A DNA stretch of 64,000 nucleotides from Desulfolithobacter dissulfuricans (GTDB lineage Bacteria; Desulfobacterota; Desulfobulbia; Desulfobulbales; Desulfobulbaceae), in NCBI RefSeq assembly GCF_025998535.1, contig NZ_AP024233.1, positions 966,217 to 1,030,216 of the forward strand, read 5' to 3'. A program made the translations under genes and the position numbers. Under the pieces are notes generated by a model. It did no database searches. It was not told the DNA's origin and saw only the letters and a list, made by a program, of their open reading frames with translations. Below are positions 38,923 to 56,476 of the stretch, one piece after another; the first letter of the stretch is position 1; each line of letters opens with the position of its first letter.

Positions 38923-38923
38923 G

Positions 38924-38941
38924 ATATTCCTCCTTGAATAT
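38924..38941 (-). promoter_or_regulatory. Putative CsrA-binding hairpin over flagellin 1 Shine-Dalgarno
   Basis: On the minus strand ATATTC-AAGGAG-GAATAT forms a perfect 6-bp stem with a hexaloop. The loop carries an ANGGA motif and most of the AAGGAGG ribosome-binding site, 6 nt before the ATG. This is the classic shape of a CsrA site on a flagellin leader. Confidence 0.65.
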
Positions 38942-38954
38942 GTGTTGGGTAGAT

Positions 38955-38985
38955 TTCGGTTGGCATCCTTGCCGGTGAAACGTAC
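38955..38985 (-). promoter_or_regulatory. Promoter-like element shared with flagellin 2 (tentative)
   Basis: On the minus strand TACGTTT is followed about 16-18 bp later by AACCGAAAT. The same arrangement (TACGTTT, then TCGGATCA) lies at the same distance before flagellin 2. It might be a variant sigma-28 promoter but is far from consensus. Confidence 0.3.
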
Positions 38986-39192
38986 AACTTAAAAAAATGT
39001 GTTGCGGATGTGTTTTTTGTTGGCCGTCACCTCCTTGGTTCACAGAATCACTTTTTTGGAGAATCCTCGTTTTCAGAAAGAAAATGAAGAATATTTACCC
39101 TTGCTATTCGTATCGAAACCTTGGTGGATAATCTTTAGAGAAAAAATCCAGTTGTTCGTTTTTTTTGTCAAGGGCGGCAGAAAGTCCGGGGG

Positions 39193-39253
39193 AAAACTTC
39201 ACGGAGACCCGGATCCAGCGCCTGCGTTTTCGTTCGGATCACCGTGAAGTTTT
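39193..39253 (-). terminator. Stem-loop downstream of flagellin 2
   Basis: A perfect 12-bp stem (39193-39204 and 39242-39253; AAAACTTCACGG) with a longer loop lies 37 bp after the flagellin 2 stop. The transcript ends with four T on the minus strand. It is the only structure seen in the 367-bp gap 38923-39289 apart from the flagellin 1 leader. Confidence 0.6.
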
Positions 39254-39289
39254 GTTGTGAATTTATGGCCACAGGGTTGTTCGAACTGA

Positions 39290-40780
39290 TTAGCCCTGGA
39301 GCAACTGGAGGGCCAGCTGCGGCGTCTGGTTAGCCTGGGTAAGAATGGATACACCTGCCTGCTGCAGAATATTGGCCTTGGTCATCTCCGAGGTCTCCTG
39401 GGCAATATCGGCATCCCGGATCCGCGACCGGGCAGCGGTGAGGTTTTCAGCCACGTTCTGCAGGTTGGCGATGGTGGATTCGAACCGGTTCTGCAGCGCA
39501 CCCAGGTCACCCCGCTGGGCGTCTATCTTGTCGAGGGCCGCGTCAATGATCTTGATGGCGTCATTGGCGCTTGTCACAGTGCTGATATCCACCTGGGTAA
39601 CTTCCTCCATGGGAGGTATTTCCGTTGTGTCGGCCGCCTGGTTGAGGATAGATCCGCTTGACGCTGCAATGTTTGAAGAAACCGTGTAAGCGTCCGGAGA
39701 CGAAAATTCAATGGTACCTGAGACCCTGGTCGAGTCGTCTCCACCTGTCGTCAGGTCCGTGGTGTTCCCGGATGCACCCGTCACTGTGATGGTGGCACTG
39801 GAGGTGGTATGGGTGAAATCCTCCAGGACGATGTCTTTTCCTTCGGCCTGGACCAGAGTGATGGTGCCTCCGCTTACGGTTGCCGTGACACCGGTGGTGC
39901 CGCTCTGGGCATTGATGACCGTTGCCAGCTCGCTCAAATCTCCGGTGGTTACCGAAGCATTGACCGTGGCTGTGTTGCCTCCACTGCCAATGGTCAGACT
40001 CACCTGGCCGGCATCACTGAGGCCGGACAGTGTCGCCTCGGTCCGGGCTGTTGCCGTGACCCCGGTTTCCGCTGCCGCGTCGGTTATCTTGTTGGCAATT
40101 GTGTAGGCCGTGTCTCCATCCAGGATGCTTACCGTGCTGTTTCCTTTGCTCCCGTTGATGGTCAGTGTCTGAGCTGCGATGGTGTTGTTGGATGGTGCTG
40201 CAGTAGCTGCTGTTGAGGGTGTTCCCGTTCCTTCATTGGCTGTGGTATTGTTGGCATCGAAGGCGTACCTGCCAAGGTCGTCGGCGGCCATGCTCTGGAT
40301 GGAAACCCCGATGGTTTCATTGGCGTTGGGGCCGACCTGGAACTGCTGGGAAACAAAGGTTCCGTCCAGGATATTCAACCCGTTAAAGGTGGTTGAATTG
40401 GCAATCCGGTTCATTTCGGTTTTGAGTTGGTTGACCTCAGCCTGGAGGGCAGCGCGGTCGGCGGCGGAGTTGGTGGCATTGGCAGCCTGGACTGCAAGCT
40501 CACGCATCCGCTGCAGGATGTTGGTGGATTCCTGCATGGCACCTTCCGCGGTCTGGGCCAGGGAAATACCATCGTTTGCGTTTCGTGCAGCCTGGTTGAG
40601 GCCGCGGATCTGGGCCGTCATCCGGTCGGAAATGGCAAGACCGGCGGCATCGTCCTTGGCGGAGTTTATGCGGAGTCCGGAAGAGAGTCTCTCCATGGAC
40701 CTGGAGAGATCGAGTTGGGTTTTAGAGAGATTGCGCTGGGCATTCAGGGACGCTACGTTTGTATTGATCGTCAAAGCCAT
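39290..40780 (-). CDS. fliC: Flagellin 2
   Basis: This 496-residue flagellin is very similar to flagellin 1 at both ends ('[20 protein letters not shown]', '[20 protein letters not shown]') and with the same middle architecture ('[20 protein letters not shown]', '[20 protein letters not shown]'), though the central sequence has diverged. The two genes thus come from a tandem duplication. It has its own leader with a Shine-Dalgarno in a hairpin loop and its own downstream stem-loop, so it is probably transcribed separately from flagellin 1. Confidence 0.96.
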
Positions 40781-40782
40781 GG

Positions 40783-40797
40783 TTCATCCTCCATGAA
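40783..40797 (-). promoter_or_regulatory. Putative CsrA-binding hairpin over flagellin 2 Shine-Dalgarno
   Basis: On the minus strand TTCAT-GGAGG-ATGAA gives a 5-bp perfect stem with the GGAGG ribosome-binding site as the whole loop, 7 nt before the ATG. It can be extended with one bulged base. It parallels the flagellin 1 leader hairpin, although the sequences differ. Confidence 0.55.
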
Positions 40798-40981
40798 ACT
40801 GTGTTCTGCCTGGTCGTCAATGATCCGACCGCTGGCTCGCGATACAAACGTAACATCTCTCAAACTATACTTTTTTTGTCTCTCGGTTACCTTTTCGGAG
40901 CAGGAGGTGCTTTCCTTTAGCTCTTTTTGGCTCACCTGGTTGTGCTTTTGACGGTAAGAGGGGCGGGAGTTTTCATTTGAC

Positions 40982-41007
40982 TAATGTTTTATTGCGCAAT
41001 AACATTA
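40982..41007. promoter_or_regulatory. AT-rich palindrome upstream of pseB
   Basis: TTATTGCGCAATAA (40989-41002) is a perfect 14-bp palindrome, and TAATGTT/AACATTA extends it outward with one extra base. It lies about 75 bp before pseB in an AT-rich stretch and may be an operator or part of the pseB promoter. The remaining 302-bp gap 40781-41082 holds only the flagellin 2 leader. Confidence 0.4.
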
Positions 41008-41052
41008 ATATTATTTATATTTTTTGCCGTCAAGGGGGCCGGGGTATGATGA

Positions 41053-43241
<2,189 letters not shown>

Positions 43242-43284: not shown

Positions 43285-44340
43285 TTACGCCTTCAGAATT
43301 TTTTCCTGTGGTATGGCAATCAATATCTTTTCACCCAGGGACGGCGAGTAGGACTCCATGAAAAAGAGATATTCTTTACACATGGAAAAGATCCAGAGAG
43401 GGATCTGAAAGTAGTCTTCCGGGGAATGGTATATGGATACTGCCAGCTGGGGCCGGTGCCTCTTTATAGTTTGTGCTGCCCCCTGCAACACCGCCATTTC
43501 CGCACCTTCCACGTCCAGCTTTATATAGTCAACTTGTTGTCCCCTGAGATAGCTGTCCAGGTCCACGGCACGTACCGGTTCCGCGTTGTTGACCTGGAAT
43601 CGGGAAACAGTGGAATCAGGTCCTTTGGCGACCAGATAAAGGGTGGTTGTTTCGTTCCACAGGGCCATGTTTTCCACCTGTACCTGTGGCGGCAAATCCG
43701 GGATGCGGGCAGGTAACGGGTCAAAGGCGATGATCTTGCCCTCCGGTCCCACAATTTCGGCGAATTGCCTGGTGTTGGTGCCGTCAAACATGCCACCTTC
43801 GATAACCGTGTACTTTTTTTTCAGTATCACGTGATCAAGATACTGTTGGCCCTGCCTTGTCAGGAACAGCTGCAGCAGGCAGGACAGGTCGCCCCTCATC
43901 CCCTGGATGACCGCCTGCCAGACCATTTTTGAACGGGTTCCGGTCAACTGTTTTTCTATGATTCGAATATTCTGCAGGTGTTTGTCCAGAACCTGGGAGT
44001 ACTCCAAGGTTTCTTCCGGGATTATCGCAGAAATGATGATGTTGACAAGGCCATGATCCTGCAGCAGTGCCAGTACCTCCCTGAGCCAGAAATGGGTTGC
44101 AACGACCACGAGATGATCTTTTTCCGTACGTTTGAAAAATATCTCGGGATTCAGGACAGGGATGTTGTTCAGGCTACCGGTTTTGTTTTTGTCCACAAAC
44201 GACCGGATGGTGATGTCTTTCCTGTCGCGCTGCAGGGCCTCGGCCAGGGATTCCCCCAGCCTGCCGGCCCCGAAAATTGAAAGTTCTATATTTCCGGGAA
44301 GATCGAAAACACTGGTGAGAAAGGGAACTTGCGCAGGCAT
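43285..44340 (-). CDS. FkbM-family methyltransferase with N-terminal Rossmann-like domain
   Basis: This 351-residue protein has an N-terminal Rossmann-like part (about 15-125; 'IELSIFGAGRLGESLAEALQ', 'DKNKTGSLNNIPVLNPEIFF') of the kind seen in sugar-modifying fusion proteins. A C-terminal FkbM-type SAM methyltransferase follows (about 180-340; 'VIEGGMFDGTNTRQFAEIVG', 'KIIAFDPLPARIPDLP', 'VDYIKLDVEGAEMAVLQGA'). FkbM enzymes O-methylate sugars or polyketides. It is the last gene of the minus-strand glycan operon, 27 bp after the GH57-like gene, so methylation of the flagellar sugar is likely. Confidence 0.85.
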   Translation of the reverse strand: MPAQVPFLTSVFDLPGNIELSIFGAGRLGESLAEALQRDRKDITIRSFVDKNKTGSLNNIPVLNPEIFFKRTEKDHLVVVATHFWLREVLALLQDHGLVNIIISAIIPEETLEYSQVLDKHLQNIRIIEKQLTGTRSKMVWQAVIQGMRGDLSCLLQLFLTRQGQQYLDHVILKKKYTVIEGGMFDGTNTRQFAEIVGPEGKIIAFDPLPARIPDLPPQVQVENMALWNETTTLYLVAKGPDSTVSRFQVNNAEPVRAVDLDSYLRGQQVDYIKLDVEGAEMAVLQGAAQTIKRHRPQLAVSIYHSPEDYFQIPLWIFSMCKEYLFFMESYSPSLGEKILIAIPQEKILKA

Positions 44341-44367: not shown

Positions 44368-46410
44368 TCAGTAGGTATCGCCATCATTCCGGGTCACTTT
44401 GTGGGTTGGCGTACCCTGGCTGTGGGCCGTTATTTTGAAGCTCAGGCTCATTTCACCTTTCCAGAATACATTGGCCACATCGTCGCGTTCACAGATCGAA
44501 TGGTATACCCGCAGGTAATAATCAGGTGTTGTCGTGTTGGTGGCGACTTCTTCATAGTGGACCAGGGGAACCGAATAGAGCTCAACCGGATTCGAGACAA
44601 TGGTCAACCATTTTGTCGCGTCGCCCACGACCAGGCGCCCATCGGTGTTGCCCAGGCAGTGCCTGCAGGTAACGATATGGTTTGCCGGTGAGCCCTGAAC
44701 GACTTTCCTGCCCTTGAGGTAAAATCGTTCAGTTCTGTCGCCACCGTTTGCTGTTTCGTAAAACAGTGTTTCCCTGTGGAATGATCGGGGCGGGAAGGTG
44801 CAGATCCCAAGGCGCAGCGAGGTGGGCCTGAGATCTCTGGCATACATGTCGTAGCGGATTGTCAGACTGTTTTCGCCCAGGTACAGTGATTTGAAGACTG
44901 TGAGGCCCGGCAGTTCCATTGGTAGCTTGTTTCTCACCAGGACGAAATTTTCCTGGTCGGTTATCTCAAGTTTCGGGACCTTTACCGAGAGATCGGTGTA
45001 CTGCCGCCCGTCCTGGGTAAGCAGCATGATGTGGCCAGTATAGAAATCTGATGCCAGCGATATATCGGGGAAGTACCCATGGGGGATGGTTCCAAGAAGT
45101 GGGTGGGGCCCGCATTGACGACAGGTGAACGTTTCTATGGCCATGCCCCGGTTTTTCAGGATGGTCAGCGACGTTCCGCCCTTTTCAAGAGAGATCTTGC
45201 GCCCGCTCTTTCCCGAGATACAGGTCAACAAGGGTGGGGAGGACGACCCCTCGATACGGCAATTTCTTCCTGAATCCTCCCTGGCACCGGCCAGAAAAAG
45301 CGCTGCTCCCATTCTGTTTCTGAAGTTCTCTATCTTTTCATCGGTCGTGTGGGTCCGGAAATCGCTGCCCCAGAGGCTGACCAGTTCTTTTTGCAGGAAA
45401 TCAAGCCGCCCGGGCGGGCAGGTGGTGGCGGACTCATGCTTGCTGATGGCGGCAAAAAGTCTGTAACACTGAGTATTCATTCTCGCGGAAGCCCGTCCGG
45501 TTACCGCCCATCGGGTGACGTTGTATTTATCCTGTTTCTTGGTCCGGACAGGGTAGGAGGGGGTGCATACCCGTTCAATTTCAGGCAGGGAAGCGGTTCT
45601 GGCCCTGGCGAGGGCCTGGGACGGCAACAGGATGGATGCTTTCCCCTTTGTTGTCAGCCCGGCAAGCAGGTTGTGGAGTTTTTTGAAATGTCCCCTGTCG
45701 GCCGTCCATGTTTCCAGGGTCCCGGGATGGTAATCGAAAACCTCGGCATCGGATGCATAGAGAGAAAAGAGAGGGTTGGCCACGGATGAGCTGTTCGCTC
45801 TGCCCTGACAGGCATTGATGAAATCTTCCCATTCCTCTTCATCCAGCTCTCCCCAGACCGTTCTCTGCAGTTTTTGAAAGGAGATGCAGTCACTCCACAG
45901 GAAAATCAGCCCGGTCCCGGCGTGGATTACGGGCTGGTAACGCCAGCTTTCCGGCCAGGAGTGCTCTTTCCTGGCATTCATCCAGTCAAAGATGATGGCT
46001 TCGTAGCCGGCCTCCCGGTACAGGCCGGCCAGGCTGTCCGAATAACACTGTTCATTGACAAGGGCTGTTTTTGGTCTGGTCCCGAGTATTTTTTCGTATG
46101 TTTCGATGCCGTATTTCAGATTCCAGCGATTGACCCTGGCTGGGATCAACGGGAAGATGGCCTGTGAGTAACTCGAACCGATCAGCTCGGCCCGCCCGCT
46201 TGCAAGCAGCGTCCCAAGCCTGGTGATGTACGATGGCTGCAGGTCGGCGATGAGTTCAAGGGTCTCCCCGGTGTATTCCAGACCCAGCGGGATGCCGTTT
46301 TCCGCAATATCCAGCAGTCGACCGTACACATTATCTACCAAGTACCGGTAGTGTTTTGTGGGAATCGACGAAAAGGCGAGATTGTGATGGAAGATAAGGA
46401 AAAAGTTCAT
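44368..46410 (-). CDS. GH57-like glycoside hydrolase family protein
   Basis: This protein of about 680 residues has an N-terminal GH57-type domain: 'NFFLIFHHNLAFSSIPTKHY', 'LGLEYTGETLELIADLQPSY', 'ELIGSSYSQAIFPLIPARVN', 'TALVNEQCYSDSLAGLYREA' (position of the catalytic Glu in the family). A long beta-rich C-terminal region follows ('LRLGICTFPPRSFHRETLFY'). GH57 enzymes act on alpha-glucans, and some members in polysaccharide clusters have no known substrate. The ATG at 46410 overlaps the ATP-grasp stop (ATGA); upstream in-frame codons are probably not used. In this operon a trimming or transglycosylation role on the flagellar glycan is possible but unproven. Confidence 0.72.
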   Translation of the reverse strand: MNFFLIFHHNLAFSSIPTKHYRYLVDNVYGRLLDIAENGIPLGLEYTGETLELIADLQPSYITRLGTLLASGRAELIGSSYSQAIFPLIPARVNRWNLKYGIETYEKILGTRPKTALVNEQCYSDSLAGLYREAGYEAIIFDWMNARKEHSWPESWRYQPVIHAGTGLIFLWSDCISFQKLQRTVWGELDEEEWEDFINACQGRANSSSVANPLFSLYASDAEVFDYHPGTLETWTADRGHFKKLHNLLAGLTTKGKASILLPSQALARARTASLPEIERVCTPSYPVRTKKQDKYNVTRWAVTGRASARMNTQCYRLFAAISKHESATTCPPGRLDFLQKELVSLWGSDFRTHTTDEKIENFRNRMGAALFLAGAREDSGRNCRIEGSSSPPLLTCISGKSGRKISLEKGGTSLTILKNRGMAIETFTCRQCGPHPLLGTIPHGYFPDISLASDFYTGHIMLLTQDGRQYTDLSVKVPKLEITDQENFVLVRNKLPMELPGLTVFKSLYLGENSLTIRYDMYARDLRPTSLRLGICTFPPRSFHRETLFYETANGGDRTERFYLKGRKVVQGSPANHIVTCRHCLGNTDGRLVVGDATKWLTIVSNPVELYSVPLVHYEEVATNTTTPDYYLRVYHSICERDDVANVFWKGEMSLSFKITAHSQGTPTHKVTRNDGDTY

Positions 46411-47651
46411 GGAGTGCTGGTGACTATTTTGATCGTCCGGTACACCCAGTCGGCATGGTCTTCCGCTTCTTCTCTTGTATTTGCGCATATAACAAAGACC
46501 CCGAACCTGTCGGCATGGCTCTGTACCGGTGGAACCCGGTCTCCGGGCTGATACCAGAATTCCAGTTTATGCAGCCATGGCTGTCGTCGGACATTCTCCG
46601 CTCCCTCTATGCGGATCAGAGTCCCGGGCTCGGGGAAAAAATACCTATTGACCACCCCTTTCTGGAACCGGGGCCTAAGTAAATCCAGGTCCGGTTCGCG
46701 TCCGATAGCGATATTGATGGCTGCCACAACGATATTGACGCCGCAGCCCAGCGGGATGAGGCTTTCGGAAAAATCACCGCCTGAGAGGCGGGTGGCCATT
46801 TCTATCATTCTGGGACCTTCCGGGGTGAGGACCACATCACCTTTGACCACGCCGTTTTCGACCCCGAGAGCTAAAGCCGCCTGCTCCACCAGCCGTTCAA
46901 CAGCCTGTCGTTGTCCGGAGGTGACACGGCTGGGAACCCAGCCGCCGTTTTCAATGATATTGGGCGCATAACGGTGCAGCATTTCATAGTTACGGTCAGC
47001 AAAGCCAGGTGTATGGGCCCTGCCCTGCCACATAACTGTTTCCGTGCTGATCTGCAGGCCGGGCAGAAACTCCTCTACCATGACCTGTCCCGTGAAAGAG
47101 AGGGCCCGGGACTGCTCGTACAGTACCTTGAGATCGCAGCCCCGGTTCAGATAGAATACCCCCCGGGCTCCGGAACGATCCACCGGTTTGAGAACCAGCG
47201 GATATCCCTGCTGCTCGACCGTCTGGATCAACTCATCGAGGCTGTGGATGGCCCGAAACCAGGGAACGGGTACGCCGTGATCGGCGAAACAGCGCTTCAT
47301 CAGGTACTTGTTGGTCGACAGCTTTGCCGACCTCATGGGGATGTGCGGGGTGCCGAGATACGATGCAAGTTCACAGACAACCTGCGGAATATCGCTTCCC
47401 ATGACAAGCACTCCGGCGATGGGACCCTTATCCCGCTGATATCGATCGATCAGTCTTTTCAGTGCCGGAATGTCCGTGGTGCTGATCTGCGCATGGTCGT
47501 CAGCGAGCTTGAAACCGGGAGACGTTGCCTGTCTGTCCACCACCAGCACCCGTAACCCCATGCTTCGGGCCGTTCGGATAGCAAAGATCTGGTCCGCACT
47601 GGCTCCCAGCAGAAGAATGGTCTGCCGGGCCTGTTGTTCCTTCTCAGCCAA
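46407..47651 (-). CDS. ATP-grasp ligase (carbamoyl-phosphate synthase-like fold)
   Basis: This 414-residue ATP-grasp enzyme has an N-terminal pre-ATP-grasp domain ('TILLLGASADQIFAIRTARS', 'GVLVMGSDIPQVVCELASYL') and the ATP-binding core ('LVLKPVDRSGARGVFYL', 'VMVEEFLPGLQISTETVM', 'PRMIEMATRLSGGDFSESLI'). Such enzymes join a carboxylate to an amine or thiol through an acyl phosphate. It starts with TTG, preceded by CGGAGGGG, and overlaps the SDR gene by 8 bp and the GH57-like gene by 4 bp. A likely job is attaching an amino acid or other acyl group to an amino sugar. The substrate is unknown. Confidence 0.82.
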   Translation of the reverse strand: MAEKEQQARQTILLLGASADQIFAIRTARSMGLRVLVVDRQATSPGFKLADDHAQISTTDIPALKRLIDRYQRDKGPIAGVLVMGSDIPQVVCELASYLGTPHIPMRSAKLSTNKYLMKRCFADHGVPVPWFRAIHSLDELIQTVEQQGYPLVLKPVDRSGARGVFYLNRGCDLKVLYEQSRALSFTGQVMVEEFLPGLQISTETVMWQGRAHTPGFADRNYEMLHRYAPNIIENGGWVPSRVTSGQRQAVERLVEQAALALGVENGVVKGDVVLTPEGPRMIEMATRLSGGDFSESLIPLGCGVNIVVAAINIAIGREPDLDLLRPRFQKGVVNRYFFPEPGTLIRIEGAENVRRQPWLHKLEFWYQPGDRVPPVQSHADRFGVFVICANTREEAEDHADWVYRTIKIVTSTP

Positions 47652-48393
47652 GGTAGGCCCCTCCGCTGACGCTGATCACCTGACCGGTGATATAGTTCTG
47701 TTCGTCAGAGGCCAGCAGGATGCAGGTGCTGGACACGTCCTGCAGCTGACCGGGCCTTTTCACCAGGGTCATGTCGATTATCTTCTGTCCGGCGGGGCTG
47801 GCCAGCTCGTCCGCTGTCTGATCGGTCCACATGATGCCCGGGGCCACTGCATTCACCAGAATATTATGTTCGGCACCATAACGGGCGATCACCTTGGTGA
47901 GGCTGTTGAGTCCGGCCTTGGAAACGGCATAATGAACGGTCTTGGGCCCGTGGTATTGGCCGGCAACAGAGGAAATGTTGATGATTCGGCCGCTTTGTTG
48001 CCTCTTCATGTAGGGAAAAACTTCCTGGCTGCAGATGAAAGGCCCCTTGAGGTTGACTTCCATGATCCGGTCCCAGTCTTCATCGGTCGCCTCTTCAAAC
48101 CAGCCCCGCCTGTTGATCCCGGCATTGTTGACCAGTATATCTATCCGGCCAAACTCATCTATCGCCCTGCAAAACATCTCTCTGACTTCCGGCCGTCGGG
48201 ATATGTCGGCCCGGATAGCCATGGCCCGGCTTCCGGCTGCCTCTATTGTCTTTACGGTCTCGTCGGCGAGATCGACCCGGGATATATAGTTGACGACTAT
48301 GCGACATCCTTCCCTGGCAAAGGCCAGAGCGATCTCCCTGCCGATTCCGCGGGATCCACCTGTAATGACGGCGACCTTGTCTTTCAGGCGCAT
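47644..48393 (-). CDS. Short-chain dehydrogenase/reductase (FabG-like)
   Basis: This 249-residue classical SDR has the NAD(P) motif 'VAVITGGSRGIGREIALAFA', 'ILVNNAGINRRGWFEE', and the catalytic Ser-Tyr-Lys set ('NISSVAGQYHGPKTVHYAVS', YxxxK as 'YAVSK'). It is FabG-like in length, but the operon suggests a sugar or acyl-intermediate substrate, as for PtmA-type flagellin modification oxidoreductases. I chose the ATG at 48393, with GGTGGAGG upstream. It lies 17 bp after the radical SAM gene and overlaps the ATP-grasp gene by 8 bp. Confidence 0.86.
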   Translation of the reverse strand: MRLKDKVAVITGGSRGIGREIALAFAREGCRIVVNYISRVDLADETVKTIEAAGSRAMAIRADISRRPEVREMFCRAIDEFGRIDILVNNAGINRRGWFEEATDEDWDRIMEVNLKGPFICSQEVFPYMKRQQSGRIINISSVAGQYHGPKTVHYAVSKAGLNSLTKVIARYGAEHNILVNAVAPGIMWTDQTADELASPAGQKIIDMTLVKRPGQLQDVSSTCILLASDEQNYITGQVISVSGGAYLG

Positions 48394-48410
48394 ATTTTCC
48401 TCCACCTGGT

Positions 48411-49700
48411 TTATCCTTGAAAGAATTCGAATTCCTTTCTGAATGTCTCGAAATAATGTTTCAGGGTGGTCCGTGAAACATTTTCCTCGTTGAGATAAAT
48501 GGCCTTCTCAAGATCAAAGGACTCCTTCTTCAGGTAATCGATATTGAGTCGGCTCCAGTCCATATCTTCGCTGACCAGTCCTTTCTGCATGGCCAGATCC
48601 CAGTAAGGCGTGCCGGGGATGGGCATGGTGAGATAAAACCCGTGGATCTTTAGCACCCCCTTGTTCCTTTTCAGGAACTGGTAGGTCAGCTCCAGGTCCT
48701 CTTCCGTCTCCCCCGGGCTGCCGAAAATAAAGGAAGCGCGTACGTCCAGACCCAGTTCCCGGCACAGATTTATACAGCGCTGATGATGGGCAACCGAGGC
48801 ATGCGGGCCCTTGATCTCCTTGAGTAATCGGTCTGATCCTGTTTCTCCTCCGAATTTTATGGAAGTGAAACCCATCTCCCTGGCCATGAGGAGGATGTCT
48901 CTGGAGGCAAGGTTGGAGGAGATGAAGCTGTCGAACCGAAACTGATCGGAGAGTCCTTCGGTTCGCATCATCGTCACGATCTCGCGAACCCTTTTAGGAT
49001 CGGCAAAAAACAGGTCATCGAGGAGATGGATGCTTGTGGCATCATAGGTTTTCTGCAGATATTTCAATTCCTGGACAAAGTAGGCTGCACTGTGTGGCCG
49101 GAATTTTCTCCAGTGTCGGGACGATGCACAGAACTTGCATCGATAGATACAGCCCCGGGAAGAGAACTGAAAGATATTTTTCGCTCCGGGCGAGATATTC
49201 CGCTTGGGATATGGCAACAGGTCTATGGAAGATAACGGTTCAACGGGCTCGGTGATTTTGACGGTTCCTGATTCGTCATGATAACAGATTCCCGGAATGT
49301 GGCGGAGACTGGATGGGGAAAATGCGCCCTCGTCTTGCAGGAGCCTCACAAGGTTGAGGAACGTCGTTTCTCCCTCGCCGATGACGCCTGCATCAAAGCA
49401 GCTTTGGAGTTGCTGCGGTAGCGAGGTCACATGGTATCCACCAAGCAGGACAGGGATTGCGAGGTGTTTTTTTATCTTTCTGGCATGTTCCAGAGCTGCG
49501 TTGAAGCATTGGGAAACAGAGCTGATCCCGACCAGATCCGGTTTCTGGAGGAAGATGTCATTGATGTCGGCCGTGATGTCTACCGTGACATCGGGTAGAT
49601 GTTTTTCCACGTAGGAGGCAAGATAGCCGATCCCGAGCGGAAGTTGCCTTTTGTGTAGCTCGTCCTCTTTGAGCGATGTAACAAGGAGTGTGATCTTCAT
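48411..49700 (-). CDS. B12-binding-domain radical SAM protein
   Basis: This 429-residue protein has an N-terminal cobalamin-binding Rossmann domain (about 1-130; 'RQLPLGIGYLASYVEKHLPD', 'VGISSVSQCFNAALEHARKI', 'PVLLGGYHVTSLPQ') and a radical SAM core with the cluster motif 'CIYRCKFC' (CxxxCxxC) and 'FDSFISSNLASRDILLMA'. Such enzymes catalyse methylations at unreactive carbons or phosphorus, or ring rearrangements. The ATG at 49700 overlaps the upstream methyltransferase stop (ATGA). Its place in a flagellar glycan operon suggests C-methylation of a sugar, but this is inference. Confidence 0.88.
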   Translation of the reverse strand: MKITLLVTSLKEDELHKRQLPLGIGYLASYVEKHLPDVTVDITADINDIFLQKPDLVGISSVSQCFNAALEHARKIKKHLAIPVLLGGYHVTSLPQQLQSCFDAGVIGEGETTFLNLVRLLQDEGAFSPSSLRHIPGICYHDESGTVKITEPVEPLSSIDLLPYPKRNISPGAKNIFQFSSRGCIYRCKFCASSRHWRKFRPHSAAYFVQELKYLQKTYDATSIHLLDDLFFADPKRVREIVTMMRTEGLSDQFRFDSFISSNLASRDILLMAREMGFTSIKFGGETGSDRLLKEIKGPHASVAHHQRCINLCRELGLDVRASFIFGSPGETEEDLELTYQFLKRNKGVLKIHGFYLTMPIPGTPYWDLAMQKGLVSEDMDWSRLNIDYLKKESFDLEKAIYLNEENVSRTTLKHYFETFRKEFEFFQG

Positions 49701-50368
49701 GTGGTGTGTCGGCCCCCGGTTTCCCATGTTGTTATAGCTTTCAGGTCTGAGGGAACAGTACAGTAAAATACATATGTTGTTTCTTCGACATGGTATAGGG
49801 CAATGTCGCGGGAGAGCCGGTCAAGGAATCCGGTGATTTCATACCGGGGATTTTTGTAGTCATGCCACACGATAAACCCTCTCTTGCCACCTCTGAGCAT
49901 TTTGAAGGCTTGCTCTGTGTCCGAGGCAACCACATCGATATGGTGTCCGCCGTCGATGAGGATGAAGTCGATCTGTCCGGTGAACCGCGAAAGATCCATT
50001 GTGGTGGAATCCCCATGGAGTTCCTTGATACGTCCGGCCTCTGCCAGCCCGTGGAACATTTTCTCTCCTTGCCTGCCGGTGGCGAAGTTCTTTTTTTCAA
50101 AGTCATCAAGAGGTGTCTTGGCGGTTATTTCGTCGAGGTCGACAGTGAAAACTGTGGCCTTGCTGTTGAGCGCAAGAAGGGTGGTCGTTTCCCCGATATA
50201 GGTGCCGAACTCAAAAATGGTTTCCGGCCGACCAAGTTTCACGAGCGCCGTCAGAATAGCCCGCTCCAGCATGGAGGTGAGAGAGTGTTTGCCCGGCAGG
50301 GGAATGGTGGCCAATTTTTCGTTCTCGTCAAGAAGGTCGAAGATGGTGTGTGGTCGTAAGCAATGCAT
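49697..50368 (-). CDS. Class I SAM methyltransferase (Methyltransf_24-like)
   Basis: This 223-residue methyltransferase has motif I 'ETIFEFGTYIGETTTLLAL', the acidic strand 'ATVFTVDLDEITAKTP', and 'FILIDGGHHIDVVASDTEQA' with 'GFIVWHDYKNP', the layout of Methyltransf_24 sugar or small-molecule methyltransferases. It overlaps the radical SAM gene by 4 bp, so the two products are probably made in step. The target is unknown; an O- or N-methyl group on the sugar is plausible. Confidence 0.82.
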   Translation of the reverse strand: MHCLRPHTIFDLLDENEKLATIPLPGKHSLTSMLERAILTALVKLGRPETIFEFGTYIGETTTLLALNSKATVFTVDLDEITAKTPLDDFEKKNFATGRQGEKMFHGLAEAGRIKELHGDSTTMDLSRFTGQIDFILIDGGHHIDVVASDTEQAFKMLRGGKRGFIVWHDYKNPRYEITGFLDRLSRDIALYHVEETTYVFYCTVPSDLKAITTWETGGRHTT

Positions 50369-50457
50369 CGCTGTCCTGGGTGGTTGTCTGGTCGTCCATG
50401 AAGGTAGTCGATTCTGGTCCGGGGCGTTGGAAGACCCCTGGCTCCGGCAAGACGCTG

Positions 50458-51666
50458 TTACCGCATCAGGTCACAGGCCAGATCAGCATACCGGTTGATT
50501 TCTGTTCTGGCCCGGTCGATCTTGTTTCGGACCGCCGCGGATACGGAAATTTTGTTTCGCATCAGGTCCTCTGTTTTATGGATAATGGTTTCCGGAAGAA
50601 GGTGATCCAGAGAAATGCAGTAGTTGTCACAGCCGATGAAATCCATGAAGCTTGTTACCTTGGGATGGTAGCTAATGGCCACCGATGGTACCCCTTGGAT
50701 CGCCGCATAGACATTGGCATGCAGCCGGGTACAAATGGCGAGGTTGCAGTTTCTGTAGAGCGCCAGGGATTCGTCAACAGACAGGTGGTCGTCGACTCTG
50801 AGTACAGAATCATGGTGCTGCATTCGCCCGGAAATGGCCCGGGCCACGGTCCGGTCGTCCTGTTCAGGGGCGCCATGCTCGTAGGTGCAATGCGGAATGA
50901 AGAGCATGTTGACGTTGAAATGTTCGATCAGTTGATCAAGGGATGAGGCCATCGTGTCAATATATCGTTGGTAATCCATCCCCATCTGTCTGGTTACCGC
51001 CCGAACAGAAACCGCGAAGACCTGTCTTTCGCCCCCGCTGCAGCCGGTTGGGAACGGGTGGCGAGGCCGGGAGCCGGGATCAAGGCCCAGAACAGGATCC
51101 GGCAGCAGGTGTATTTCACCCTTATGATCAAGTGATCGGAGGTATTGCAGGCTCCCTTGGTCCCGTACCGTGATGATATCTGCCAGTTTCGCGGCCAGCC
51201 GTGTCATTCTGCAACCGAGATCCGTTGTCAGGGGACCGATGGAGATGCCGAACCAGAGTACAGGGGTGTCTGTCATCTGGGCCATGAGGGTGAGAATAAC
51301 AAAATAGGGTATGGGGCCTTTGAGCAGGTCTATCGTGTAGTCGACAAAGGCATTGCCTGCACCAAGAATCAGGAGATCGGCGCGTTCAATCTGCCGGAGC
51401 AGGGAGTGCAGGTGGCGCCGGTCGTCGTCGTGGTTAAAGCCCTGAAACCATTTTCCCAGACCAGCCGCTCTGCTCTCGTATTCAAAATTGGGCAGAACCT
51501 CGAGTCCATAGGGCGCATACAGTTTTTCCGAGGCGTGGCGGCAAAGCACCACCCCTTCCAGGTGCTGGTGGCGACGCTGAAGCTCCCGGTACAGGACCAG
51601 GAGGGCGGCATCGTCGCCCTGGCTGCGAATACCGTACGCTCCGGCAAACAGAACTCTTTTGGCCAT
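50458..51666 (-). CDS. Polysaccharide pyruvyl transferase family protein
   Basis: This 402-residue protein of the polysaccharide pyruvyl transferase family has 'RVLFAGAYGIRSQGDDAALL', 'LLILGAGNAFVDYTIDLLKG', 'VLWFGISIGPLTTDLGCRMT' and 'IITVRDQGSLQYLRSL'. The family transfers pyruvate from PEP to sugars as ketals; some members act on flagellar or spore-coat glycans. The ATG at 51666 opens the tightly spaced part of the operon. An 89-bp gap separates it from the methyltransferase gene. Confidence 0.85.
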   Translation of the reverse strand: MAKRVLFAGAYGIRSQGDDAALLVLYRELQRRHQHLEGVVLCRHASEKLYAPYGLEVLPNFEYESRAAGLGKWFQGFNHDDDRRHLHSLLRQIERADLLILGAGNAFVDYTIDLLKGPIPYFVILTLMAQMTDTPVLWFGISIGPLTTDLGCRMTRLAAKLADIITVRDQGSLQYLRSLDHKGEIHLLPDPVLGLDPGSRPRHPFPTGCSGGERQVFAVSVRAVTRQMGMDYQRYIDTMASSLDQLIEHFNVNMLFIPHCTYEHGAPEQDDRTVARAISGRMQHHDSVLRVDDHLSVDESLALYRNCNLAICTRLHANVYAAIQGVPSVAISYHPKVTSFMDFIGCDNYCISLDHLLPETIIHKTEDLMRNKISVSAAVRNKIDRARTEINRYADLACDLMR

Positions 51667-51701
51667 TGGTCACTCCGCTTGATGTATGTCGGAATCCTGA
51701 G

Positions 51702-51747
51702 CAGGTTGTTGAAAAACCGCTGCGCTCGATGATACTGCGCCAAAATC
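51702..51747. repeat. Diverged partial copy of the MITE-like element at 27.6 kb
   Basis: The first roughly 45 bp of the 27591-27731 element recur here with about 6 differences, beginning with CAGGTTGTTGAAAAAC. The rest of the element is missing. It lies next to a possible transposase remnant. Confidence 0.65.
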
Positions 51748-51753
51748 CAAGGT

Positions 51754-51995
51754 CTAGTGCTTCACAACACGCTCATACGCAAGAACCTTTCGCTTGCGTC
51801 CGTAGAGGTTGATGAAATATTTTCTGTCCTGCTTCCGGTACTTGCCGGCCAGGGGTGAAGAAGTCCTGGTTCCATCTGATCCCGGGAAACGAAAATGTGA
51901 GCCTGTTTGTGATCTGTTGCATAAAACATTGCGTCGTCTCTTGGATTGCTGACATGGCATTGCCAAGTATTAGTAAGGTTGGTCCTGGTTTGCAA
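51754..51995 (-). pseudogene. Possible transposase remnant (tentative)
   Basis: Two overlapping minus-strand frames look like pieces of one protein: 'DAMFYATDHKQAHIF' near the upstream end in one frame and 'KYRKQDRKYFINLYGRKRKV' near the downstream end in another. Neither forms a full gene. The first fragment reminds me of the start of some IS transposases, but I cannot name the family. It fills the 344-bp gap 51667-52010 together with the repeat fragment, which suggests an internally deleted insertion sequence. Confidence 0.35.
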
Positions 51996-52010
51996 TTTAA
52001 ATATGCATAT

Positions 52011-53248
52011 TTATTCTGTGAAATTAATAAGTTGCCACTTAGTTTCTTTTTGCGGGTCCAACATGCATGGCGTCTCCTTGAGCCGGAACAGACAGCGGAA
52101 AGGTACTCCGGGAAAGCGTACCGCTGCCGCGTCGCGGATGTCCTCAAGCAAGGTCCGGTTACCCACGCCCGCCAGAATCAGCCGGGGGGCGAGATTCTCA
52201 AGGGCGTGGTCGTCCAGGATGGAGGCCGCCAACAGCTTGTGGTTCTGCTTGGCGGGGTTGGCGTCATACACGCACAGCCGGGCCTGCAACTCCACAGGCA
52301 GGTACTGTAGAACGCCAAGCAGGTCAACTCCTGCACCCCAGACGAGCACGCCGTCAGCCGCGGGCGCATCGTTTTCCAACAGGGCGGCCAGTTCGGCAGC
52401 AGCCCGGCGAGAGGATCGTTCCTGGCGGTCAAGCTGGCGGGCGAACAGCTTTCCGGCATCCAGACCCCTGTGGCGACCAGGCATAGGCAGGGATAGCGGC
52501 CTACGTCCCGGTCCGACAGATGCACGACGGCCAGTCCTCGTTCGGTGATAGCCGAGGCCAGGCCCGGACCCGTAAAGTGGTGGAGGTGGGTGGTGTGGAT
52601 GTTCTGGCCGATATGGTAGCCGCCGTCTGATGCCAGCAGCAGGGAGGAGGGCACCTCCAGTAGCAGCCATCCGCTGTCGGCGACGAATCCCGCCAACTGG
52701 TCCAGGAACAAGGCGGGGTCGTGCACGTGTTCCAGGACGTGGCGGCAGATCACCAGGTCGCAGGAGGCCGGTTCCAGCTCTCCTGATGCCACCAGGTCGG
52801 CAAGGGTGCCGTGGATAATGCGGTGGGACGAGTATCTGTCGTTGGCGCTCGGCGCCGGCTCCAGGCCAACGGTCTCCAGTCCCCAGCGAGCAGCAACCAG
52901 GTCCAGGAGTGCTCCGTCGGCGCAGCCGACTTCCAGGCAACGGCCGCTGGTGAGCCCCGTTGTCTTCTGCAGCAGATCCAGGCGATCCTCCAGTACCGGG
53001 GTTTTGTAAGCCGTAGTTTCGGCCACTGTCCGAGGCGGCGGGGTGTTCGCGTAATAGCGGTCCAGCGCAGATGCCGTCGGCAGGGGATGCTGAGATACAG
53101 TGCCACAGTGGTCGCAGACCAGATAGGTCGCGGTAAGATGTTGCAGGGCCCGGGCCAGCTGCCGGTCGTCCATGACCGGCAGAACCTGGGTCCCTGCTTC
53201 GGTGCGTCCGCGAGCTCCGCACAGGGGGCAGAGTGAGGATCCAGGCAT
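52011..53248 (-). CDS. Zinc-binding SAM methyltransferase (Methyltransf_13/14 type), interrupted by a frameshift
   Basis: The restored product is about 412 residues. It has an N-terminal zinc motif ('CPLCG' and 'CDHCG', Methyltransf_13 type), a SAM core ('RCLEVGCADGALLDLVAARW', 'SCDLVICRHVLEHVHDPALF') and a C-terminal Methyltransf_14-like domain ('VLVWGAGVDLLGVLQYLPVE', 'LCVYDANPAKQNHKLLAASI'). The last domain is in another frame. Adding one G (minus strand) to the four-base run at 52465-52468 joins the two. Family members C-methylate or modify dNDP-sugars. I chose the ATG at 53248, with GGAGGAGG upstream. Confidence 0.82.
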
Positions 53249-53619
53249 CAGAAGCCCTCCTCCCGTGGTGTATGGCCGGTTCCGATTTTCAGCTCCAGTT
53301 CCCTGGTCACCGCCAACAGGAGATATATGGCGGAATCTGTCAGTGAAGATAAAACACTGTTTTTCATAACTTATGAATAGCCCTGATTGGCTCTGGTGGG
53401 CAACAGTTGAATTCACATCTGGAAAACCCTTTCACCCTTTGTGCCGATAAAATGTGGTCCTTGATACAGACATGGCTTGGCAAGCTGTTTTCGTGCCAGC
53501 TGTGCTGTTCAGGGAGGTGAAGCGTCCACCATCTCATTTCTCCGTTGTTTCCTTGACTCGTACTCTTGCAGGGTTCGCAAGTTATAGGCGCCTGTAAAGC
53601 GCTTTCTGGGCTTTTTCCA

Positions 53620-53775
53620 TCATCTCTGGATCGGGGATGGGACGACGGATTTTGCTGATGGTTGACCATCGTCCACAGAAGGAATTCTAGTCGCCCTACG
53701 GGCTCCTTTCGCTCTTCCCATGGGTGACGTTGTTTGATTTTGCATGGACTCGGGGTGTAATGGTACAGTTTTCAT
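53620..53775 (-). CDS. Possible small ORF in the methyltransferase-neuB gap (tentative)
   Basis: A 51-codon frame starts at an ATG with GGAG 8 nt upstream and encodes a basic peptide ('MGRAKGARRATRIPSVDDG'). I do not recognise it. It lies in the 623-bp gap 53249-53871, where no other gene or clear repeat was found. The gap is unusually long for this tight operon and may contain an eroded insertion. Confidence 0.3.
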   Translation of the reverse strand: MKTVPLHPESMQNQTTSPMGRAKGARRATRIPSVDDGQPSAKSVVPSPIQR

Positions 53776-53871
53776 GGTGATTACTCCTGCCCGCCCTCCA
53801 CTAATTTCTCAAGGGGCAGGTGACACTTTCTCATTGGCACAGAGGGTTCTGATCCATCGTAGAGGGTGGTT

Positions 53872-54722
53872 TCACAGATGGTCGCGGGTGGAGGCAAGGG
53901 GACGCAGTCCGTCATCGGGATCCCGGCGCCAGGCGCGATCAGGCTCTTCCGAGGGCATAACCTTTTTTCCGGGGGCACCATCAGCCTCCATGCCGAGCCG
54001 GATCGTTTCGATCACCTCTGTGGCTTTTTGCGGAAGCCAGCAATGGCCCAGGGGTATTCGGCACCCTGACCATCGATATCGAGATGGAATTCTATCATGG
54101 ATGCCTTCCATCTGTGCACGGCCCGGTACATCACGGCTGGCGATACACTGTGATCAGACCATCCGACCCGGCAACCGAAATGTTGCCGGAGTGTTTCGAT
54201 GACCGCCAGGTTGCACTGGTCCACGGGCGTCGGGTAGGCGGAGACGCAGTGAAGGAGTGTGAGGTCCCGACAGTCCGCCGCCTGCAATGTCGTGACCGCC
54301 TCGTCTATTTCCTCCATGGTCGCCATGCCGGTGGAGAGAACAACGGGTTTGCCGGTCTTGGCGCAGGCGATCAGGAGATCTTTCCAGAGCAGCTCGTAGG
54401 AGGCGATCTTGTAGAAGCTGACAAACGGGGCGAGTTCGTTCACCGCTTCCAGGTAGAAGGGCGTACATGAAAATGCAATATCATGTTCCGCGCATTTTTC
54501 ATGGAGAAGGGGAAGAAATTCGGTGGGTAATTCCCACTGTTTTCTTTTTCTGTGTTCCGCGCTTAGCTGCAGCACAGAGGGGGCAAAGAGCTTGTCGATC
54601 CGGAACAGCTGAAATTTAACCGCCGCACATCCTATTTGGGCAGCTGTCTCGATAAAGCGATAACAGCGCCCGAGATTCTGATTGTGGTTGCTGGATACCT
54701 CGGCGATAAATGTGACAGTCAT
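53872..54722 (-). CDS. NeuB/PseI-family nonulosonate synthase without SAF domain, interrupted by a frameshift
   Basis: The restored product is about 283 residues of the NeuB TIM-barrel family, which condenses PEP with an amino sugar to form a nonulosonic acid. Motifs are 'TFIAEVSSNHNQNLGRCYRF', 'FSCTPFYLEAVNELAPFVSF', 'KPVVLSTGMATMEEIDEAV', 'RVGWSDHSVSPAVMYRAVHR' and 'GHCWLPQKATEVIETIRLG'. The last motif is in another frame; one extra C (minus strand) in the four-base run at 54051-54054 restores it. The usual C-terminal SAF/antifreeze-like domain is absent. The ATG overlaps the SpsF-PseG stop (ATGA). Confidence 0.85.
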
Positions 54723-56476
54723 GCGCAGGGTTGCTTCAGGAGAGAGTTTATCTTACGGACAATGTTGGAGGTGCCGTCCTCAATGACCTGTCCTGTTTTC
54801 TCGACCAGGGCCTGATTGATGACCCTGGAAAGTTCGTCCTGCTTTGCATCGGTGGGTACCACGATCTCCCTGAGACCGGTCTGCCTGTAAAAGCATCGGG
54901 CATCGCGGCAATGGGCAGCGGAAAACGCCCAGGTTACCGGGTAGGTGCCCAGGGCAAGGGCCTCGTAAAAAGAAACGCCAAATCCGCTTAAAAACACACG
55001 GCTTCTCGCCATAAGATAATGGAAATCAGGACGTTGCCCCTCAATGATGTGAACAGTAAGATCAGTTGCTGCAGAAAATTTCTTGATGATATCTCTTTGC
55101 CACTCGTGATGCAGGTACGTCAGGAGATCAATGTTTTTGGGAATCTTCCGGTCCGTCAGTCTGCTGATTTCCCTGCGAAGAATCACATAGTCGCGTCCTG
55201 CAAGAATTTCAGGTTTCCCATCAGCGGACTGACTGTCGGGAACTTGTCCTGTAACACCAGGAATAATGACAAGGTCCGCTTCCCTGGTCCAGTCATCAAG
55301 CCGGTCGATGATTACGACCCTTGAACTTTCGGGAAGCCTCTGCCTCCACCCCGGTGGCAGGTTGTTCTGGCAGTTCAGATCCAGAATAACCAGGTCATAG
55401 GAGGCAAGCCAGGCGGTATTCCCGGGGGCGGAGAGACCAAGGAGTTCGACGGGATTTTTTCCATTGTACATTGGCAGGGATGCGGAGCGGTCTGTCGCGT
55501 CTTTATCCTTTGGCAGTACCCGGAGTCCGACCGCCTCCAGGGAGTTTGTCGCCTCCAGGTCGGTTACCAGGAAGGTGACCGACCATCCAAGCCGTTCCGT
55601 GATCTGCAACGCCAATTCACGGCTCCGCATGAGATGCCCGTATCCGTATTTTTCACCGGCATCTACCACCATGAGGACCTTCCTGTCGATTTCTCCCACA
55701 CCTTTCTGGTGGACATGGCTGTTGATGCTTACAAGGGATTGATCCTGCCGCAGGAGGTTGACGACCGCAGGGAGGCTGTAGGTGGAGCCGCTGGCTGCAA
55801 GGGTGTTGTGCACTACATTATGAAATTCAAGATCTGCCCAGGTATCTATGGAATAACGATGATGAAACGGGGCATAGAGGTCCTTTTGAAGCGCGATTCT
55901 GTGACAGGTAAAAAGGTCAGGACGTTGGTGGAGGATCGGAAAATGGTGTTCCTTCAGAGCCGGCCGGTCCGACAGGTCATCGGCACGCTGCCAGGTCTTG
56001 ATCCGGGCAACCGAGATACCCTGCAAGGCCGGCGGGTGCCCCTGGCTGTCTGGTTTGGCTGCGACAAAGTCTGCCTCCGGGTGGCATTTGAGTGACGAGA
56101 CCAGTTGATCGATGGCAGGGGCATGGATCAATGGGCAGTCGCCACTGACAAGCACGCATATCTCCGCGGAGAATTTTTCAGCTGCCCGCCGCAACCGGGT
56201 AGTTACATGGTTGACGCCTCCAGGATAACTGTAGGTGGATATGCCCTGCTTGTCGCTCCAGGAGAGAAGGGGGCCGTTTTCTGGCTCCGCAGAGGTGGCC
56301 AGGACTATTTTGTCGACTTGCCGACATCTCCTGAGTTCCTCCAAAAGCCACTCGAGGAGCATTTTGCGCCCGATTTTTCTAAACTGCTTTCCAGGAAGCC
56401 TGGACGATCCGAGACGGGCCACAATAAAGGCCACTGTTCGTTCCTGCTTAAACGTGTCCCTGCTGCTCTCCTGCAT
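54719..56476 (-). CDS. SpsF-type cytidylyltransferase fused to PseG-like glycosyltransferase
   Basis: This 585-residue fusion has an N-terminal nucleotidyltransferase of the SpsF/CMP-sugar type (about 14-245; 'VAFIVARLGSSRLPGKQFRK', 'VLVSGDCPLIHAPAIDQL'). The C-terminal half (about 268-580) is a PseG-like GT-B fold with 'VLMVVDAGEKYGYGHLMRSR' (the GxGHxxR catalytic-His motif) and 'FLSGFGVSFYEALALGTYPV'. PseG releases UDP from the UDP-sugar before the NeuB/PseI step, and the cytidylyltransferase activates the final sugar with CMP. Joining the two non-consecutive steps is notable. It is the first gene of the minus-strand operon and is coupled to the neuB-like gene. Confidence 0.87.
   Translation of the reverse strand: MQESSRDTFKQERTVAFIVARLGSSRLPGKQFRKIGRKMLLEWLLEELRRCRQVDKIVLATSAEPENGPLLSWSDKQGISTYSYPGGVNHVTTRLRRAAEKFSAEICVLVSGDCPLIHAPAIDQLVSSLKCHPEADFVAAKPDSQGHPPALQGISVARIKTWQRADDLSDRPALKEHHFPILHQRPDLFTCHRIALQKDLYAPFHHRYSIDTWADLEFHNVVHNTLAASGSTYSLPAVVNLLRQDQSLVSINSHVHQKGVGEIDRKVLMVVDAGEKYGYGHLMRSRELALQITERLGWSVTFLVTDLEATNSLEAVGLRVLPKDKDATDRSASLPMYNGKNPVELLGLSAPGNTAWLASYDLVILDLNCQNNLPPGWRQRLPESSRVVIIDRLDDWTREADLVIIPGVTGQVPDSQSADGKPEILAGRDYVILRREISRLTDRKIPKNIDLLTYLHHEWQRDIIKKFSAATDLTVHIIEGQRPDFHYLMARSRVFLSGFGVSFYEALALGTYPVTWAFSAAHCRDARCFYRQTGLREIVVPTDAKQDELSRVINQALVEKTGQVIEDGTSNIVRKINSLLKQPCA

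Follow-up and report, generated by a model that had tools for sequence, protein, structure and literature searches.

An exchangeable cassette proposed for nonulosonate tailoring in the flagellin-glycan locus of Desulfolithobacter dissulfuricans

Introduction

What do a methyltransferase, a B12-binding radical SAM enzyme, a short-chain dehydrogenase/reductase (SDR), an ATP-grasp ligase and a protein resembling glycoside hydrolase family 57 (GH57) do together in a flagellin-glycan locus, and do they form one unit? The question is raised by five genes at 44368–50368 on the minus strand of a 64 000 nt stretch of Desulfolithobacter dissulfuricans DNA (NCBI RefSeq assembly GCF_025998535.1, contig NZ_AP024233.1, positions 966 217 to 1 030 216 of the forward strand; hereafter the window, to which coordinates without a locus label refer). 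In the 3.6 Mb source genome the five genes sit between flagellin/FliD and FlgK/FlgL genes, alongside Maf and Pse genes. A preliminary description, made from the letters of the window, took them for the window's best candidate for an undescribed system, a short pathway in a flagellar glycan locus. Related loci were compared for gene content and recurring order, for genomic association and co-inheritance, and for cassette exchange and the conservation of catalytic residues. With a probability of roughly 0.6, the unit represents one allele of a tailoring cassette that is exchangeable within a flagellin nonulosonate (pseudaminate-type) locus; the cassette would build a small nitrogen-free acid that the ATP-grasp enzyme joins to the nonulosonate. 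The place of the unit in flagellin glycosylation is well supported.

Related loci and the recurring core

The GH57-like protein was used as query against 297 genomes of the phylum (numbered G), in which 16 matched at E ≤ 1e-10, the window's own included and one (G116) weak. An alignment of this protein with 12 relatives yielded 308 related stretches in a contig collection, and the 80 most similar to the query were taken as related loci (numbered L), each with at most 10 kb of flanking sequence per side; several of the 80 are near copies, pairs of loci are not independent, and most loci are metagenome assemblies, some of which may be misbinned. Their record titles name Deltaproteobacteria, Desulfobulbaceae, Pelobacter, Alpha- and Gammaproteobacteria, Acidobacteria/Terriglobia, Verrucomicrobia, Chloroflexi, Patescibacteria and two archaea.

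The three overlaps of 4–8 bp and the single 17 bp gap first described for the five minus-strand genes were confirmed from the DNA. The first gene (49697–50368) encodes a Methyltransf_24 S-adenosylmethionine (SAM) methyltransferase (Pfam PF13578, E 1e-10), an accessory, variable member whose family occurs in 4/80 related loci. It overlaps by 4 bp the gene of the radical SAM enzyme (48411–49700), likewise accessory and variable, in which the Pfam B12-binding and Radical_SAM domains and the motif CIYRCKFC (CX3CX2C) are present and for which all 22 of 22 NCBIfam matches lie far under their cut-offs; its family was found in 23/80 loci, with close copies (at least 64% identity) only in L038, L039 and L088. 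After the 17 bp gap follow the three core genes, namely the SDR gene (47644–48393, ATG at 48393; Pfam adh_short E 1.5e-62, motifs TGGSRGIG and YAVSK; family in 48/80 loci), the ATP-grasp gene (46407–47651, TTG start, 8 bp overlap), and the GH57-like gene (44368–46410, ATG at 46410, 4 bp overlap; Pfam PF03065), whose product combines a GH57 barrel with a galactose-mutarotase-like beta-sandwich. The ATP-grasp protein has Pfam ATP-grasp and L-amino-acid-ligase C-terminal (LAL_C2, E 2.3e-18) domains and full-length profile matches to PDB 3vot and 4dim, and its family was found in 65/80 loci. A scan for sigma-28 promoters (up to two mismatches) gave three matches versus a chance expectation of 2.05, and none of the three lies at the cassette.

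What recurs in the order table of the 80 loci is the core SDR, ATP-grasp, GH57-like, that is, the last three genes rather than all five, with the GH57-like gene usually last in the cassette. The exact five-gene order was found in 2/80 loci (L038 and L039, both metagenome-assembled genomes of Desulfobulbaceae). As a single conserved unit the five genes were rejected on this restricted occurrence; since the companions differ elsewhere, they stand as one combination among many. The ATP-grasp gene directly precedes the GH57-like gene in 35 of the 74 loci that have an upstream gene (window included; median spacing 0 bp), and the SDR gene precedes ATP-grasp in 24 of these 35 (median spacing −8 bp), with overlaps somewhat overstated because starts in the related loci were assigned mechanically. 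A coupled unit within a flagellin-glycan locus, as first described, is borne out by this tight spacing in relatives and by PseB, PseC, NeuB, Maf and flagellin genes nearby.

By Pfam matches of representatives, the companions near the core comprise, depending on the locus, a transketolase pair, a DXS-like enzyme, an acetolactate-synthase-like thiamine-pyrophosphate (TPP) enzyme, a transaldolase, a KduI/IolB isomerase, GFO/IDH/MocA reductases and a radical SAM enzyme. When the 80 loci and the window were typed by the first of an ordered family list found within 5.5 kb upstream, 60/81 received a type (KduI 15, transketolase 12, TPP 11, transaldolase 8, radical SAM 5, GFO 5, DXS 4) and 21/81 were left untyped; a chain-building enzyme (transketolase pair, DXS-like or acetolactate-synthase-like TPP enzyme, transaldolase) was near in 35/81. 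Mixed sets occur: L088 has a transketolase pair with a radical SAM enzyme (64% identical to the window's), SDR (78%) and ATP-grasp (68%), and L101 a transketolase pair with a Methyltransf_24 protein (53%), SDR (79%) and ATP-grasp (64%). In L086, L108 and L116 a PIG-L deacetylase and a formyltransferase are inserted between ATP-grasp and GH57, which suggests N-deacetylation followed by N-formylation of the sugar, an editing of its N-acyl groups. No split transketolase was evident elsewhere in the window's genome, where Transketolase_C was seen only in frames of 641 and 661 residues and, partially, in one of 411.

With profile models built from the same 80 loci and the window, which partly favours the comparison, nonulosonate genes were found in 59/80 loci, flagellar genes in 42/80 and either kind in 72/80. 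Among the loci of at least 15 kb, 48/50 carried nonulosonate or flagellar genes versus 2/20 random windows of 20 kb from six genomes, all of the window's phylum (Fisher 1.4e-12, genomes being treated as independent here and below). The relatives of the unit thus cluster with nonulosonate or flagellar genes, and homologous sets did not lie mainly away from surface-glycan genes, the outcome that would have counted against the preliminary description. GH57-like genes were also seen in archaeal or Patescibacteria records (L081, L113, L074, L103, L109, L112), some with the SDR/ATP-grasp core; a bacterial flagellin is unlikely as carrier of the glycan in these, unless they are misbinned.

Across the 297 genomes, a strong GH57-like match was found in 15, an ATP-grasp match at E < 1e-90 in 15 and both in 14 (Fisher 6e-22, with an ATP-grasp profile built from genes beside GH57 genes, which partly favours the comparison, a threshold picked after the list was seen, and five weaker genomes and the weak GH57 match G116 set aside). 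GH57 alone was found in G159 and ATP-grasp alone in G133; the two genes share a contig in 12 of the 14 co-carriers and lie on different contigs in G066 and G242. PseC exceeded its cut-off in 12/15 GH57 carriers versus 32/282 other genomes. In a plasmid collection one record matched the GH57-like query and 33 matched the ATP-grasp query, and one of the 20 listed among the latter is the same plasmid. A compact cluster lies on plasmid pDCAR1 of the cultured sulfate reducer Solidesulfovibrio carbinolicus DSM 3852 (L174, NZ_CP026539.1 74767–116722): NeuB (opposite strand), pseF, a PseG-like gene, methyltransferase, SDR and a transketolase pair are joined there by a second methyltransferase, ATP-grasp, GH57, pseB and pseC, with several radical SAM genes around.

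Exchange and inheritance of the parts

Window and L040 were compared by blastn and found 95.9% identical in DNA at 53897–56145 and 90.9% at 40749–43180; the GH57-like gene is 64.8% identical, and 46412–53896 gave no match. The cassette proteins of L040 are 25% (radical SAM), 42% (SDR) and 42% (ATP-grasp) identical to the window's. In this one pair a whole cassette is exchanged between loci that otherwise nearly coincide, which suggests that selection favours variety of the flagellar surface. L040 is a contig of the same metagenome bin (WFZC01, Desulfobulbaceae) as L039, and the two contigs carry different cassettes with GH57-like genes, so that WFZC01 contains either two alleles or two loci, or else two strains.

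Co-inheritance was measured by correlating pairwise identities across loci after de-duplication at 70% GH57 identity, with 500 permutations. ATP-grasp and SDR correlated at 0.64 (36 loci), a value reached by 0/500 permutations. Over the same 16 loci GH57/Maf reached 0.89 (0/500) versus 0.02 for GH57/ATP-grasp (207/500); GH57/flagellin was 0.68 (20 loci) and GH57/PseG 0.70 (32 loci), each reached by 0/500 permutations. By descent, then, the GH57-like gene, for whose product the preliminary description suggested glycan remodelling, appears to follow Maf, flagellin and PseG more than the adjoining SDR and ATP-grasp genes, and these two appear to follow each other; vertical descent within one Deltaproteobacteria group may be part of the GH57–Maf agreement. 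Companion type was also mapped on quick trees under a simple model with 200 shuffles. For 55 loci the fewest changes were 26 on the GH57 tree and 20 on the ATP-grasp tree, the shuffles having a mean of 35.6 on both and lowest values of 27 and 30; with near copies removed (47 loci) the 26 changes on the GH57 tree fell inside the shuffles (lowest 24) and the 20 on the ATP-grasp tree remained under all of them (lowest 25).

The GH57-like protein

The match to PF03065 scored 57.1 bits (cut-off 21.2) and spans positions 39–175 of 291. A profile of 13 aligned sequences matched the 4-alpha-glucanotransferase of Thermococcus litoralis, 1k1w (E 8.7e-13), with E120 aligned to E123 and D221 to D214, which we take to be the catalytic pair of that enzyme (TLGT), Glu as nucleophile and Asp as acid/base. 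E120, D221 and E223 are invariant in 39/39 aligned sequences. At H8-H-N10 the protein has HHNLAFS, keeping the His and not the Gln-Pro of HQP, presumably the motif of GH57 conserved region I. An AlphaFold model (mean predicted local distance difference test score 88.6, predicted template modelling score 0.89) resembles the GH57 amylopullulanase 7e1y (Z 35.0, root mean square deviation (rmsd) 2.9, 353 residues) and, over most of its length, GH38 alpha-mannosidases (best Z 23.1, rmsd 4.7, 567 residues), and its C-terminal domain resembles galactose mutarotases (best Z 18.8, 3mwx). Barrel, helical part and beta-sandwich are shared with 1k1w and the GH38 enzymes, whereas identity to 1k1w/1k1x is 12–14%, the whole-length rmsd is about 17 with domains placed differently, and, unlike the glucanotransferase 1k1w, the protein lacks the HQP motif and has its setting in glycan synthesis. 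Its natural reading, from model and aligned residues, would be an active cytoplasmic retaining glycosidase or transglycosidase.

Comparison with known systems

The preliminary description knew of no described flagellar or nonulosonate pathway with this combination of families. That statement is not supported: the sfmABCDE genes of Shewanella oneidensis join NeuB, a TPP enzyme, an SDR resembling 3-oxoacyl-ACP reductase, a methyltransferase and an ATP-grasp enzyme, and their deletion changes flagellin mass and impairs motility, more mildly so for ATP-grasp (PMC3765264). The Shewanella glycan consists of a mono-N-acetyl pseudaminate-type sugar (C11H18N2O6) and an outer group that is free of nitrogen, ranges from C9H16O7 to C11H20O7 and carries O-methyl groups (PMC3765264). 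If the outer group is acyl, arithmetic on these formulae (masses checked) gives an acid C9H18O8 with no unsaturation beyond the carboxyl, i.e. a linear polyhydroxy acid. Alike in both sets, as far as the available text describes sfm, are NeuB (54012–54722 in the window), a FabG-like SDR, a SAM methyltransferase and ATP-grasp, together and near Maf; they differ in that the sfm operon has a TPP enzyme and neither GH57 nor a B12 radical SAM enzyme, and the window's cassette the reverse. By analogy of gene families Sfm appears to be a close functional precedent; with this precedent, and with the five genes not an evolving unit, 'undescribed five-gene pathway' is too strong. As no TPP-dependent enzyme is present in the window's cassette, we file the latter as a related variant of the Sfm type and not as a member.

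Among 369 genomes of the class to which the Solemya velesiana symbiont belongs, taken here to be Gammaproteobacteria, ATP-grasp matched at E ≤ 1e-50 in 13; among eight of these ATP-grasp loci, 4/8 also have a GH57-like gene, and two of the other four are contigs ending nearby. L186 and L189 hold NeuB, SDR, TPP enzyme, ATP-grasp and GH57 all together and by gene content appear to bridge the Shewanella set and the window's.

With the pseudaminate pathway of Campylobacter and Helicobacter (PseB, C, H, G, I, F; Maf/PseE) the window shares PseB, PseC, NeuB, the cytidylyltransferase, a PseG-like domain (under cut-off) and Maf; PseH belongs to that pathway, whereas the window's genome gave 0 matches to it at E ≤ 1e-10. 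To our knowledge the standard pathway does not include the added cassette. Among the 297 genomes 25 matched PseH at E ≤ 1e-10 and only two exceeded its cut-off, with weak matches in 3/15 GH57 carriers (G092, G119, G213); these counts did not discriminate for or against replacement of PseH by the ATP-grasp enzyme. When 59 of 123 unassigned small frames from nonulosonate loci were scanned, two members matched Hexapep, a family that includes sugar acetyltransferases, and no GNAT-type acetyltransferase was found, both among the 25 of 55 families listed.

In Clostridium difficile the ATP-grasp gene CDR20291_0245 is required for the peptidyl-amido end of the type B flagellin glycan (PMC5207246, available part). 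Like the window, this locus has an ATP-grasp gene in a flagellin-glycan setting; unlike for the window, a nonulosonate, GH57 or an SDR/transketolase cassette is not mentioned in that part. The available part of a paper on Clostridium flagellar nonulosonates does not mention 'SDR', 'transketolase', 'ligase' or 'radical' (PMC13317340).

Proposed function and alternatives

We infer the chemical steps and substrates as follows. The upstream enzymes of a cassette would assemble or remodel a small carbon chain without nitrogen, and for making or altering polyhydroxy acid chains transketolase, transaldolase, acetolactate-synthase-like and KduI enzymes are of a suitable kind; in the window the B12 radical SAM enzyme (probably by C-methylation) and the methyltransferases (probably by O-methylation) would fill the chain-builder position. 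A keto group would then be reduced by the SDR, and the ATP-grasp enzyme would activate the carboxylate as acyl phosphate and ligate it to an amino (or hydroxyl) group on the nonulosonate or on its uridine diphosphate (UDP)-sugar precursor. The GH57-like enzyme, as a cytoplasmic retaining glycosidase or transglycosidase, would act, close to the transfer by Maf, on that part of the sugar which varies less and not on the variable tail, and the finished sugar would be placed on flagellin by Maf.

Several observations weigh against this proposal. No nonulosonate or flagellar gene was found in 8/80 loci, six of the eight shorter than 15 kb. In other subsets GH57/ATP-grasp correlated at 0.17 (36 loci) or 0.28 (32 loci, 0/500 permutations) and GH57/SDR at 0.05 or 0.34 (the latter 25 loci, 0/500 permutations), and GH57 covaried weakly with NeuB (0.27, 22 loci) and PseC (0.11, 151 pairs), so that the 'constant sugar part' is not the whole sugar pathway. 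The window's cassette lacks a chain-building TPP or transketolase gene to supply a carbon skeleton. The likeness to Sfm is one of described gene families, and the operon as reported has no GH57 gene (PMC3765264). In the same source the Shewanella outer group is easily lost in the mass spectrometer and the 274 Da core seems to bear a basic group, for which an ester or glycoside fits better than an amide (PMC3765264).

This lability counts for the best of the alternatives, in which the cassette makes a nonulosonate tail that is not an amide but a sugar or an ester. The GH57-like protein would then serve as a transglycosidase, attaching or trimming a glycosyl unit on the nonulosonate, and the ATP-grasp enzyme would make an ester or other acyl intermediate. 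The GH57 fold, the alignment of E120/D221 with E123/D214 and the covariation of GH57 with Maf, PseG and flagellin point the same way, but GH57 covaries weakly with the tail-varying genes (de-duplicated, 0.02 to 0.28 for ATP-grasp and 0.05 to 0.34 for SDR), L-amino-acid-ligase-type ATP-grasp enzymes usually form amides, and no glycosyltransferase or sugar-donor family stands out as constant across cassettes in the 80-locus order table; we consider this alternative less likely than the main proposal, with a chance of about one in four. Less probable still is that the products decorate another surface polymer (lipopolysaccharide, capsule or an S-layer nonulosonate) and that the position in a flagellar region is incidental: GH57-like loci in Patescibacteria, WOR-1 and archaeal records show no flagellar gene in the retrieved stretch, and a neighbouring pyruvyl transferase resembles CsaB, under cut-off, but the unit is flanked by flagellin/FliD and FlgK/FlgL with Maf and Pse genes, and GH57 tracks Maf and flagellin in a set where more than half of the loci (42/80) have flagellar genes. 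A storage-glucan or natural-product operon that lies in the locus by chance is hardly credible, common as GH57, SDR and ATP-grasp families are outside glycan loci, because the nonulosonate/flagellar association recurs across many lineages and the GH57-like gene is the sole PF03065 gene of the genome, and on the same grounds (48/50 versus 2/20; sole GH57 gene) a storage-glucan enzyme was rejected as the main reading of the GH57-like protein.

If the tailoring cassette joins an acid to the nonulosonate as proposed, it would help to explain flagellin glycan masses that are unsolved, the 236–264 Da group of Shewanella among them, would provide a gene signature by which probable carriers of acid-tailed nonulosonates could be recognised among bacteria and archaea, and would name a family of glycosidase-fold enzymes acting in sugar biosynthesis. 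Practical handles are the existing Shewanella sfm mutants (PMC3765264) and the cultured carrier S. carbinolicus DSM 3852, whose pDCAR1 cassette is of the transketolase type. A wider form of the proposal is put forward more tentatively, at somewhat less than even chances: a resident PseG-like enzyme, Maf and a dedicated GH57-like enzyme would be served by swappable cartridges of SDR and ATP-grasp with a differing companion (transketolase, TPP enzyme, transaldolase, KduI or radical SAM), diversifying flagellin and other nonulosonate glycans across many lineages in a serotype-like manner, and the GH57-like protein would have a new activity, as a glycosidase-fold catalyst in sugar activation or transfer with Maf. 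No description of such a cartridge organisation, its lineage breadth or its GH57-like partner was found in the literature, open-licence papers being covered.

Neighbouring genes

An FkbM-type methyltransferase gene (43285–44340, minus strand; Pfam PF05050) lies 27 bp downstream of the GH57-like gene, in the same place in L038 and absent in L039. A polysaccharide pyruvyl transferase family gene (50458–51666, minus strand; Pfam PF04230) lies 89 bp upstream of the Methyltransf_24 gene, directly so in L038 and L039 as well; in L088 and L101 the transketolase pair intervenes. Both genes are probable extensions of the unit. On the plus strand are a Maf-type flagellin glycosyltransferase (32758–34746; Pfam MptE-like and Maf_flag10_N), a PseB-type 4,6-dehydratase (41083–42084; Pfam Polysacc_synt_2 E 1.6e-104) and a PseC aminotransferase (42081–43241; NCBIfam TIGR03588, 557.9 bits, cut-off 423.5). 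On the minus strand are two flagellin genes (37435–38922 and 39290–40780, together 37435–40780; Pfam Flagellin_N and Flagellin_C), a Methyltransf_23 protein (52178–53416; Pfam PF13489), a NeuB-type nonulosonate synthase in a short reading frame (54012–54722; Pfam NeuB E 1.2e-57) and a cytidylyltransferase fused to a PseG-like domain (54719–56476; Pfam CTP_transf_3; NCBIfam PseG 37.4 bits, under the cut-off of 153.55). FlgK, a flagellin-like FlgL candidate and FliD are also in the window.

The NeuB frame has 236 residues versus 282–283 in the near relatives L038 and L039, and NeuB-like sequence runs on in another frame at 53875–54075 (region 53875–54722); the gene seems frameshifted or cut short close to the 3' end, either in nature or by a sequencing error. 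Between Maf and flagellin a conserved protein of about 200 residues (e.g. L050:13945–14550) belongs to a family seen in 21 loci, a representative of which had no match in a Pfam search. Sulfotransferase-family genes were seen in two Desulfobulbaceae contigs (L039:3856–4662 and L040:4696–5568) and suggest sulfated glycans in their carriers.

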